Source of the DNA: Actinomycetes bacterium
GTDB taxonomy: Bacteria; Actinomycetota; Acidimicrobiia; Acidimicrobiales; RAAP-2
DNA: 64,000 nucleotides
Direction: 5' to 3'
Assembly: GCA_021806045.1 (NCBI GenBank)
Contig: JAJZDI010000006.1
Span: 70,964-134,963 of the forward strand
The translations under genes and the position numbers were made by a program. Under the pieces are notes generated by a model. The model saw nothing but the letters and a program-made list of their open reading frames with translations, did not search any database and was not told the origin of the DNA. How positions within the stretch are numbered: position 1 is the stretch's first letter; every line of letters starts with the position of its first letter. This document shows positions 2,316 through 5,380 of this stretch, piece after piece.

Positions 2316-2343
2316 TTGACGATGAAACAGGTTTCGCTTTACT
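2316..2343 (+). promoter_or_regulatory. Promoter of the second tetR gene
   Basis: TTGACG (2316-2321) and TTTACT (2338-2343) are separated by 16 bp. The predicted start falls just before the GTG at 2354, so the transcript would have little or no leader. The palindrome at 2323-2349 overlaps the spacer and the -10. Confidence 0.6.
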
Positions 2344-2349
2344 GTTTCA
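2323..2349. promoter_or_regulatory. TetR-type operator palindrome
   Basis: TGAAACAG (2323-2330) and CTGTTTCA (2342-2349) form a perfect 8-bp inverted repeat with an 11-bp spacer. A further GTTTC at 2331-2335 pairs with the first arm as GAAAC-AG-GTTTC, giving three half-sites. The position over spacer and -10 fits repression, most simply by the adjacent TetR protein. Confidence 0.6.
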
Positions 2350-2353
2350 CCCT

Positions 2354-3151
2354 GTGACCGTCAGTCGTGGAGAGTTCCACGTGGTCCGAGGGGGACAGGG
2401 GGGGGCCGGCAGCGCGTGGGGACGCGATGAACCGGCTGGCAGCCCCAGTGCACCACCACGGAACCGCATCATCGACGCCGCTCTGGCGTGCATCGTCCGG
2501 CAGGGCGTGGCCAAGACCACCGTCGACGACGTGGCCCGTGCCGCCGGACTGTCCCGGGCGACCGTCTACCGGGTGTTCCCCGGTGGCAAGGACGAGCTTC
2601 TCCGGTCGACGGCGGAGAGCCAGGTCGCCACATTGTTCACCGAGCTGGCGGCCCGGCTGAGCTCGGAGAACGACGTGCGGGGCGTGCTGGTGACCGCCAT
2701 CTCGGGCGCGGCGGCAGCCATCGCCGACCATCCGGCGCTGGCCACCCTGCTCGACGTCGAGCCGGAGGTCGTGCTCCGCCTCCTCGCATTCGACGAGGGG
2801 AGCGAACTGCTGCGCATGGCGAGCACCTTCGGGGCGCCGTTCCTGGCCCGGTGGATGCCGATGGAGGAGGCCGCCCGGGTGGCCGAGTGGGCCTGCCGCA
2901 TCATCCTCACCTACGTCGTCGACCCGTCCGACCGCGTCGACTGCACCGATCCGGTCGCCGTCGGCCGGCTCGTCGAGACCTTCGTGCTCCCCGGCGTCCG
3001 TGCCCTGCGGGGGCCGGCGGCCGATGAGCCGTTCGACCTGACCTCGGCCGCCACCGACCGGGACGCCGCCGGCTCCGCCCGCCGGTCCCGAGAACACGAT
3101 CACCGCCACCACCGCACCGACCACCACCGCAAAGGGGAAGAAGTCTCATGA
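2354..3151 (+). CDS. TetR-family regulator (second of a tandem pair)
   Basis: Transcription regulator of 265 aa. A 40-50 residue polar N-terminal lead precedes the HTH (KTTVDDVARAAGLSRATVYR), which is followed by VFPGGKDELL. The HTH shares most residues with the previous gene. The last 30 residues are His/Arg/Asp-rich and look disordered. GTG 2354 is the first start after a good promoter; a later start inside the lead cannot be excluded. The stop overlaps the start of the diiron gene as ATGA, so the two are translationally coupled, and the operator in the promoter suggests autoregulation of this pair. The inducer is unknown. Confidence 0.85.
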   Translation: MTVSRGEFHVVRGGQGGAGSAWGRDEPAGSPSAPPRNRIIDAALACIVRQGVAKTTVDDVARAAGLSRATVYRVFPGGKDELLRSTAESQVATLFTELAARLSSENDVRGVLVTAISGAAAAIADHPALATLLDVEPEVVLRLLAFDEGSELLRMASTFGAPFLARWMPMEEAARVAEWACRIILTYVVDPSDRVDCTDPVAVGRLVETFVLPGVRALRGPAADEPFDLTSAATDRDAAGSARRSREHDHRHHRTDHHRKGEEVS

Positions 3152-4293
3152 CCATCGAGTCACCACCGGAGATGAGCGCCAACTTCGACATCATCGGCCG
3201 CGACGAGATCAACGACTACGAAGCCATCCTGTCCGTCGTCGGGGTCGAGGAGCCCGACGGCCACCACCGGGTGGAGGCCACCTACGACACCGACTTCACG
3301 TGGGACTACGAGAAGGGCGCCCGGGCCAAGCTCAACAAGCTCTACGAGAAGGCCAAGAGCGCCCAGTGGAACGGTGAGACCGATCTTCCCTGGGACACCG
3401 ACGTCGACCAGGCCAAGCTGGTGACCGAGGCGGCCATGGCGAACGGCGGCTTCGGGGCCGAGTTCGACCTGTCGGGGACGCCACTCGCCTCGTGGGGGGA
3501 CAAGGAGTTCCTCGAGTTCGGCATCGAGAGCCAGAACTGGACGCTGTCGCAGTTCATGCACGGCGAGCAGGGGGCCCTCGTCTGCACGGCCAAGATCGTC
3601 CAGACGGTGCCGTGGATCGACGCGAAGTACTACGCGTCGACCCAGGTCATGGACGAGGCCCGCCACGTCGAGGTCTTCGCCAAGTACCTCGACGGCAAGC
3701 TGTCCGGGCACTACCCGGTCAACGCCCACCTCCGCCTCCTGCTCGACGACATCATCGCCGACAGCCGGTGGGACATGACCTACCTCGGCATGCAGATCAT
3801 GGTCGAGGGTCTGGCGCTGGCCGCCTTCGGGTTCATGCACCAGATGTCCAACGAGCCGCTGCTCAAGACCCTCCTCCGCTACGTCATGGCCGACGAGGCC
3901 CGGCACGTCGCCTTCGGGGTGATCAGCCTGCAGGAGTACTACGCGGGGCTGAGTGCGGGCGAGCTCCGCGAGCGCCAGGAATTCGCCTTCGAGGCCGCCG
4001 TCCGCATGCGCGACCGGTTCCTCCAGCAGGAGGTGTGGGACCGCATGGGGGTCGACCCCAAGGCGGTCGTGCCGTTGATCGCGCAGGCGCCCGAGCGCCA
4101 GATGTTCCAGGCCCTCCTGTTCTCGAAGATCGTCCCCAACTGCCGCAAGCTCGGACTGCTCGACGCAGCCGACGGCTGGCTGCGCGAGCGCTTCACTGAG
4201 CTGGGCGTCATCCAGTTCGAGAACTGGGAGGACACCACCGAGGACGCGGACGCCAACTCGGACCTGCCTCCCCAGGAGCGCATGGCGTCCTGA
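3148..4293 (+). CDS. Ferritin-like diiron protein (putative oxygenase or oxidase)
   Basis: 381 aa with a complete carboxylate-bridged diiron site of the ferritin/ribonucleotide-reductase R2 fold: Glu140, Glu170-x2-His173 (in MDEARH), Glu220 and Glu250-x2-His253 (in ADEARH). The two halves are about 80 residues apart, as in four-helix-bundle diiron enzymes. Substrate cannot be read from sequence; oxidation or hydroxylation of an aromatic, amine or lipid are all possible. The R2 family proper is unlikely because no radical tyrosine context is evident. The ATG overlaps the stop of the tetR gene (ATGA). The gene sits inside a DAP region without an obvious link to it, so the pair of regulators probably controls a separate response. 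Confidence 0.8.
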   Translation: MTIESPPEMSANFDIIGRDEINDYEAILSVVGVEEPDGHHRVEATYDTDFTWDYEKGARAKLNKLYEKAKSAQWNGETDLPWDTDVDQAKLVTEAAMANGGFGAEFDLSGTPLASWGDKEFLEFGIESQNWTLSQFMHGEQGALVCTAKIVQTVPWIDAKYYASTQVMDEARHVEVFAKYLDGKLSGHYPVNAHLRLLLDDIIADSRWDMTYLGMQIMVEGLALAAFGFMHQMSNEPLLKTLLRYVMADEARHVAFGVISLQEYYAGLSAGELRERQEFAFEAAVRMRDRFLQQEVWDRMGVDPKAVVPLIAQAPERQMFQALLFSKIVPNCRKLGLLDAADGWLRERFTELGVIQFENWEDTTEDADANSDLPPQERMAS

Positions 4294-4364: not shown

Positions 4365-4469
4365 ATGGGTCATCCCGCTCAGGCCATGCGAACCGATCCT
4401 GCCGGAGCCCAACCAGCCGGGTCCGGCGACTGCCGGTCCGACCCCTGCCCCGGACGGGGGGAGCGGTGA
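4365..4469 (+). CDS. Possible 34-codon leader ORF of dapA
   Basis: ATG at 4365 opens a 34-aa frame that ends in TGA at 4467-4469, overlapping the dapA GTG as GTGA. A -10 hexamer precedes it, so it would be leaderless while dapA has its own purine-rich ribosome site (about 4455-4462). The peptide is rich in Pro, Ala, Gly, Arg and Asp and has no lysine codons, so classical lysine attenuation is unlikely. It may only couple translation to dapA, or be fortuitous. Confidence 0.3.
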   Translation: MGHPAQAMRTDPAGAQPAGSGDCRSDPCPGRGER

Positions 4470-5380
4470 GCGGCCCCCGGTTCGGTGCGGTCATCACCGC
4501 CATGGTCACCCCCTTCGACGACGAGGGGGCCCTCGACCTGGGGGCGGCCGTCGAACTGGCCCGGTGGCTGGCCGACAACGGCAGCGACGGCCTGGTCGTG
4601 ACCGGGACGACCGGAGAGAGTCCGGCGCTGACCGACGAGGAACGGGTGGACCTGTGGCGGTCGGTGGCCGACGCGGTCACCATTCCGGTGCTCGCCGGGA
4701 CCGGCACGGCGGGGACCGAGCACTCGGTGGCGATGACCCGTGCGGCGGAGGCGGTGGGTGTCGACGGCATCCTCGTCGTGACGCCGTACTACAACCGCCC
4801 GCCCCAGTCGGGCATCGCTGCCCACTTCCGTGCCGTCGCCGGGGCGACGTCGCTGCCCGTCGTGCTCTACGACGTACCCGTCCGCACGGGCCGGCGGATC
4901 GCGCCGGAGGTCCTGGTGGCACTGGCCGCGGACGTCCCCAACATCGTGGGGGTGAAGGACGCGACGGGCGACCCCGCAGGCGCGGCCCGGGTGGTGGCCT
5001 CCACACCCGACGGCTTCGAGCTCTACTGCGGTGACGACGCGCTCACCCTGCCGATGATGGCGGTGGGGGCGGTCGGGGTGATCAGCGTGGCGTCGCACTG
5101 GGTGGGAGACGCCATGGGTGCGATGGTGGCGGCGTTCGCCAGCGGCGACCACGAGGGCGCCCGTGCCGTCAACGCGTCGCTGCTCGAGTCCTACGCGTTC
5201 GAGACCTCCGACCGCTTCCCGAACCCCCTGCCGGCGAAGGCGGCGTGCCGGGCGCTGGGGCTGCCGGTCGGGCAGTGCCGCCTTCCGCTCGGCCCCGCTC
5301 CCGACGAGCTCGACGCAGCGGCCCGCCAGCTGGTTGCTTCGCTACCCGCAGCGGCCCGGTCGCCGCACCGCGTTGGCTGA
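4466..5380 (+). CDS. dapA: 4-hydroxy-tetrahydrodipicolinate synthase
   Basis: Condenses pyruvate with aspartate semialdehyde, the first committed step to DAP and lysine; a cytosolic TIM-barrel aldolase. 304 aa. Visible motifs are GTTGESPALT, VVTPYYNRPP, the active-site Tyr135 (VLYDVP) and the Schiff-base Lys164 (VGVKDATGD). GTG 4466 follows a GGGGGGAG ribosome site. The end overlaps the likely rnj start by 8 nt. The dapA-rnj-ftsK order resembles that in Mycobacterium, a conserved actinobacterial block. Confidence 0.96.
   Translation: MSGPRFGAVITAMVTPFDDEGALDLGAAVELARWLADNGSDGLVVTGTTGESPALTDEERVDLWRSVADAVTIPVLAGTGTAGTEHSVAMTRAAEAVGVDGILVVTPYYNRPPQSGIAAHFRAVAGATSLPVVLYDVPVRTGRRIAPEVLVALAADVPNIVGVKDATGDPAGAARVVASTPDGFELYCGDDALTLPMMAVGAVGVISVASHWVGDAMGAMVAAFASGDHEGARAVNASLLESYAFETSDRFPNPLPAKAACRALGLPVGQCRLPLGPAPDELDAAARQLVASLPAAARSPHRVG

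Follow-up and report, generated by a model that had tools for sequence, protein, structure and literature searches.

A conserved promoter-operator element in front of a predicted TetR-repressed diiron oxygenase operon in mostly uncultured actinobacteria

The stretch of DNA analysed here (64,000 nucleotides, hereafter the window) carries two adjacent TetR-family genes and a gene for a diiron protein, and comparison of sequences across relatives indicates that the second TetR gene (TetR2) and the diiron oxygenase gene likely form a leaderless operon repressed by TetR2. A single element holds the -35, the -10, the operator and the TetR2 start codon, so that any protein bound to the operator palindrome would cover both the promoter spacer and the -10. 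In place of an undefined combination of two TetR genes with a palindrome there is now a defined promoter-operator-start element across a class of mostly uncultured actinobacteria, through which an uncharacterised oxygenase can be approached directly. The bacteria with the block are mostly uncultured soil and water dwellers, and the DNA switch is almost unchanged among them; its predicted regulon comprises the diiron oxygenase, cytochrome P450 genes and a second ferritin-like gene. The conserved element, together with a TetR pair beside an oxidase gene across the class, opens a possible two-regulator switch, hitherto unstudied, to experiment; whether two paralogous TetRs act at a shared operator can now be asked, with genomes that lost one partner as natural controls. 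The literature searched (mostly without subscription papers) contained no description of this gene block or operator, and the accessible part of PMC3511530 held no matching case.

All genes of the block lie on the forward strand. The neighbour upstream of TetR1, at 889-1680, and the neighbour downstream of the diiron gene, at 4466-5380, were assigned from the open reading frame list, with the sequence in the first case and synteny in the second, and are presumed from their translations to be dapB and dapA, respectively. TetR1 (1686-2291, GTG start) begins 5 nt after the dapB stop and is probably made together with dapB. TetR2 (2354-3151, GTG start) overlaps, by ATGA (3148-3151), the ATG-initiated gene for a 381-residue diiron R2-like oxidase/oxygenase (Pfam AurF, PF11583; 3148-4293). 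The TetR_N helix-turn-helix (PF00440) was matched in TetR1 and TetR2 with 51.5 and 50.5 bits (E 8.8e-14 and 1.7e-13; Pfam cut-off 24), the two proteins are 36% identical over 198 amino acids, and their SRAT-type recognition helices, VSRATVYR and LSRATVYR, are near-identical. The preliminary description of this DNA had thus rightly reported adjacent TetR genes with almost the same helix-turn-helix, the second coupled by ATGA to a diiron protein; the interval that it gave, 2316-4293, does contain TetR2 and the diiron gene, but TetR1 precedes it. The order dapB-TetR1-TetR2-diiron-dapA was complete in 16 of the 17 nearest named loci (L032-L048; 16/16 in L033-L048), the seventeenth being cut by a contig end. 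Upstream of dapB, at 85-837, the window encodes a repeat protein with repeats of type GGYWLVASDGGVFAFDAPFHGST.

Between the two TetR genes, the palindrome TGAAACAG-N11-CTGTTTCA was found at 2323-2349 (forward strand, as are all its parts), placed on a promoter-like TTGACG-18-TACTGT. The 27-bp operator at these positions consists of a 7-bp left arm, TGAAACA (2323-2329), a 13-bp spacer and a 7-bp right arm, TGTTTCA (2343-2349); the -35-like TTGACG lies at 2316-2321, the -10-like TACTGT (2340-2345) is shared with the right arm, and the TetR2 GTG follows 5 nt from the operator end. The arms are the variant that the window's genus carries of a more general TGAGACA/TGTCTCA. No operator copy precedes TetR1 in the window. 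A scan for the sigma-70 consensus gave no match in the window, the 2316-2345 promoter included, because the -10 departs from TATAAT, and the promoter assignment therefore rests on conservation. The 64-kb window contains eight perfect palindromes of the 8+11+8 type, and the operator pattern with up to three mismatches was found twice against 1.6 expected from shuffles, so that at this near-chance frequency one sequence alone proves little. The palindrome by itself is not beyond chance; it is the comparison with relatives that secures the operator.

Relatives were gathered from whole genomes plus a contig collection, yielding 255 loci with a diiron homologue. A TetR lay directly upstream in 199 of them, none was detected in 54 (some being extra copies in one genome and some truncated contigs), and the remaining 2 were too short. 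Some locus records were duplicated, under a G handle and under an accession number, and distinct counts drop identical ones only. A credible operator was present in 173 of the 199 loci with an upstream TetR, corresponding to 148 distinct combinations of TetR helix and site and 146 distinct site sequences, and was absent in the remaining 26, genus g10 among them; in a smaller locus set with some duplicate records, 91/109 scored at least 13 of 16. The consensus reads TTGAC-N2-TGAGACA-N10-TA-N-TGTCTCA, with the TetR2 start codon coming directly after it. TTGAC was exact at the equivalent place in 104 of the 148 distinct relatives, and within the -10 (consensus TAnYGT) T17, A18 and T22 were kept in 140, 145 and 146 of the 146 distinct sites, respectively. 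An in-frame TetR2 start was located 1-8 nt past the site in 140/148, versus 102/444 control windows further downstream, most commonly at the fourth base after the site. Because the TAnYGT at site positions 17-22 is a plausible -10 and would make transcription begin at the start codon or close beside it, the TetR2 mRNA is predicted to be leaderless. By regular expression, the 13-bp spacer between 7-bp arms was matched in 136 of the 199 loci, a 12-bp spacer in 3 (L222, L256 and L275), and 60 were unmatched. Covariation across the dyad was detected at positions 3/23 (p 0.0004) and 6/20 (p 0.004), both values being uncorrected for relatedness. The arms that had been reported over the -10 and the spacer are thus conserved at the same place in relatives, close ones included, and on this comparative footing the outer arms with their 13-bp spacer are the operator. 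Within the spacer, a G (position 13 of the site, 2336 in the window) and a C (position 15, 2338) occur together in 89 of the 146 distinct sites, the window having the common G and lacking the common C; these bases are possibly the inner contact of a second dimer.

A third, internal GTTTC half-site had also been proposed, giving a 5+2+5 inner palindrome, and with it a model in which the paralogues compete for overlapping palindromes of unlike spacing (2 or 11 bp). These inner features are present in the window and in L003, from the same genus, but in none of the other distinct sites (2/146), whereas the outer geometry alone is conserved and its spacer is fixed at 13 bp. The inner half-site was therefore rejected as a functional element and is regarded as incidental to these two sequences, and competition between the paralogues in this form is considered highly improbable.

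The element is specific to few places in the genomes. The strict pattern with TA gave 26 matches in 198 genomes of the order, 24 of them before TetR2-diiron, against 0 in the control, and a slightly looser pattern gave 75 rows in 395 genomes of the class, representing 74 distinct places in 72 genomes, against 0 in the reversed control. Of these 74 places, 63 were beside a TetR-diiron pair, one (G665) was before a TetR cut by a contig end, and 10 were elsewhere. Six of the latter were at cytochrome P450 homologues (G010, G132, G740, G675, G007 and G702; L136, L135, L310, L311, L309 and L307), with the order site, ferredoxin (PF13459, E 1.7e-11) and P450 (PF00067, E 2.8e-24) in L136. The other four comprised a site 5' of a second, distant ferritin-like gene (G397; L308 2050-2076), the counterpart of G000:C36 (L002, L324), a contig end (G586) and two unexplained places (G054 and G000/L113). 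In genus g10 no site was found at the diiron promoter (L020, L147), though one was present at P450 genes. Given these P450, ferritin-like and diiron neighbours, the site, as placed by pattern matching, singles out a limited group of oxygen-using types of enzyme. In the window's own genome (G000) there were one zero-mismatch site and three further one-mismatch sites (L113, L114 and L115). The L113 site (1501-1527) has TA in place and lacks TTGAC, and is located at the end of one gene, taken to be transporter-like, and before another frame, taken to be GGDEF/EAL-like, both names being assumed from the translations. No diiron, TetR or P450 homologue was present at either L114 or L115, and the closest relative that this genome has of the g10 P450, L325 (51%), had no credible site. 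On these places, a wider regulon in the window's own genome was set aside.

A tree of 236 TetR sequences contained one branch (support 0.926) that separated 88 TetR1 from 88 TetR2 sequences (176/176). Of 60 single TetRs encoded beside the enzyme, 55 fell on the TetR2 side; the five exceptions, which fell on the TetR1 side, came from outside the class. Judged by their sequences, TetR1 and TetR2 are two ancient lineages. When 18 genomes were searched with a TetR1 profile, TetR2 was the sole match in all 12 tested genomes of family f7 (ten) and genus g73 (two), and genomes with this result include two single-contig genomes; TetR1 appears to have been lost in that family and that genus, where the operator nevertheless keeps its symmetry. 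In one f7 locus, L149, no TetR was detected. As family f7 keeps TetR2, the site and the enzyme without TetR1, TetR1 is dispensable in principle. A tentative alternative is that TetR1 has its own regulon and is merely a neighbour, with TetR2 acting alone at the promoter. The retention of TetR2 and the site without TetR1 in f7 and g73, the placement of most single TetRs on the TetR2 side and the location of TetR1 kilobases away in some genomes (L065, L070) all point that way, but TetR1 and TetR2 stay close together in 88 distinct loci with near-identical recognition helices, and the window's genome offers no second zero-mismatch site for a separate regulon. Outside the class, a single TetR with an SRQT helix was found together with TGTGACA/TGTCACA-type arms in L156, L158, L161 and L162, each with a diiron homologue (45-47%) behind it, and this joint change from SRAT to SRQT and to TGTGACA...TGTCACA arms fits the binding of these arms by this helix. 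Poor sites were seen in L159 (SRQS) and L164 (SRQT).

The two arms are unequally conserved. Across the 146 distinct sites the left core TGAGAC was kept in 132 and the right core GTCTCA in 80, with 54 keeping the left only and 2 the right only (p 4e-14, uncorrected for relatedness). With a residue other than Ala at the variable position of the TetR1 helix (SRTT, SRTS, SRST, SRVT), 12/12 had an altered right core and 11/12 an intact left one, whereas with Ala the right core was kept in 39/76 (Fisher p 0.0009, uncorrected for relatedness). These observations, together with arms that are symmetric in 20/20 loci with a site in family f7, where 10/10 tested genomes lack TetR1, would be accounted for if the two proteins divided the operator, TetR2 reading the left arm in the promoter spacer and TetR1 the right arm at the -10, either joined in a heterodimer or each as its own homodimer, with both ligands needed for release. 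Such a division is possible but doubtful, since parsimony places only about three changes of the TetR1 helix residue on the tree, 44 sister pairs show no correlation of right-arm change with helix change in TetR1 (rho 0.13) or TetR2 (rho 0.15), the right arm varies under an unchanged TetR1 helix in family f1 (TGGAAC, TGAAAC), and the overlap with the -10 would allow the right arm to drift with promoter strength. Summed mutual information between helix columns and the right arm was 3.41 for TetR1 and 2.31 for TetR2, a difference that is not decisive. The arm asymmetry hints, at the level of sequence, that TetR1 and TetR2 share the site, which the sister pairs do not confirm. The full form of this idea, in which the two paralogues sit jointly on one 27-bp operator abutting the start codon, one arm each, and the promoter opens only with both ligands, is regarded as rather unlikely. 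If true, joint occupancy would make the operator a two-input gate of natural origin, composed of two distinct TetR proteins and retained throughout a bacterial class; in some relatives the gate would also cover P450 genes and the second ferritin-like gene. Mce3R of M. tuberculosis likewise has two TetR units in one regulatory system, as a double TetR in one fused chain where the present block has two genes.

The favoured reading, repression of the operon by TetR2, was set against known TetR systems. The TetR2 model (pLDDT 80.2) shows the all-helical ligand domain of the TetR type and aligned with TetR structures from residue 30 to residue 220, at Z up to 13.7. Its nearest solved relatives by Foldseek were AlkX of Dietzia (5YDP) and Rv3249c/AlkX of M. 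tuberculosis (5D1W), at 22-25% identity, followed by FadR; in a second structural alignment QacR chains also reached Z 13.7, equal to AlkX. In the accessible part of PMC9430723, AlkX is described as the repressor of an alkane hydroxylase operon, with weaker DNA binding in the presence of palmitic acid. AlkX thus resembles the predicted TetR2 as an actinobacterial TetR repressor whose target, a hydrocarbon hydroxylase system, is iron-dependent, but as described there it is a single TetR, and its target is AlkB with rubredoxins and not an R2-fold protein. By this analogy, the inducer of TetR2 is probably hydrophobic. TetR2 on the palindrome would shut the promoter and so limit its own synthesis, until a hydrophobic ligand (a long-chain fatty acid, an acyl-CoA or a product of the oxygenase) released it; on release, leaderless TetR2 and the coupled enzyme would be made together, giving a self-limiting loop. 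TetR1, which stands outside this loop and has the same recognition helix, may join TetR2 on the site as a second ligand input, this being the least certain step.

Operator length bears on how TetR2 might bind. The operators of TetR proteins that bind as dimers of dimers measure 28 (QacR), 32 (CgmR), 31 (Ms6564) and 22 bp (CprB), and those of single dimers 15-17 bp, in the available portion of PMC4150764. The 27-bp operator is longer than the single-dimer class and, by analogy, fits the dimer-of-dimers class, the QacR, CprB and Ms6564 operators spanning 22-32 bp, and TetR2 probably binds it as two dimers in the QacR/CprB manner. The spacer does not itself form an inner palindrome, so the classical QacR geometry is not visible in the sequence; in QacR, CprB and Ms6564, moreover, two dimers of one protein are bound, whereas here two paralogues are available. 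A leaderless, TetR-autorepressed enzyme operon is known in Rhodobacter sphaeroides (acuR-acuI-dddL; PMC3017554, as far as accessible). As in that operon, the TetR gene comes first with the enzyme behind, an inverted repeat lies over the promoter, and leaderless expression and self-repression are predicted. Unlike the present block, the part of that source available describes a single TetR, a repeat TAATAGAC-n6-GTCTATTA and acrylate as inducer, and does not describe the enzymes as diiron proteins.

The enzyme scored just above the cut-off for PF11583 (34.5 bits against 29.6), and 29 of the 30 diiron members in alignment A1 matched the same family at E 0.001. Its ligands, E140, E170, H173, E220, E250 and H253, follow an E, ExxH, E, ExxH pattern, and in 30 relatives E170, H173, E220, E250 and H253 were invariant and E140 nearly so, the exception being the partial sequence L002. 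Identification as R2lox was rejected on an NCBIfam score of 34.7 bits against a cut-off of 194 and on the Val/Tyr cross-link being missing, A143 and M215 occupying its places when counted from E140 and E220 with the spacing that we assume for R2lox. Identification as class I R2 was likewise not adopted, as the residue four positions after the ExxH His is F177 and not Tyr; R2c proteins also do without the radical Tyr, and F177 thus lowers the likelihood of R2 without excluding it. AurF structures were absent among the fold matches listed, which is no evidence against AurF. The substrate is guessed to be hydrophobic, since R2lox binds a fatty acid (PMC6399176, in its accessible part) and in view of the nature of the regulator. 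The AlphaFold model of the enzyme (pLDDT 85.7) matched R2lox and ribonucleotide reductase R2 (best Foldseek E 1.5e-4), with Z 21-23 over 235-267 residues in a second alignment; as modelled, the enzyme has an R2/R2lox-type fold, sharing with these proteins the fold and the ligand pattern at 10-19% identity, but differing from R2 in the radical Tyr and from R2lox in the cross-link residues.
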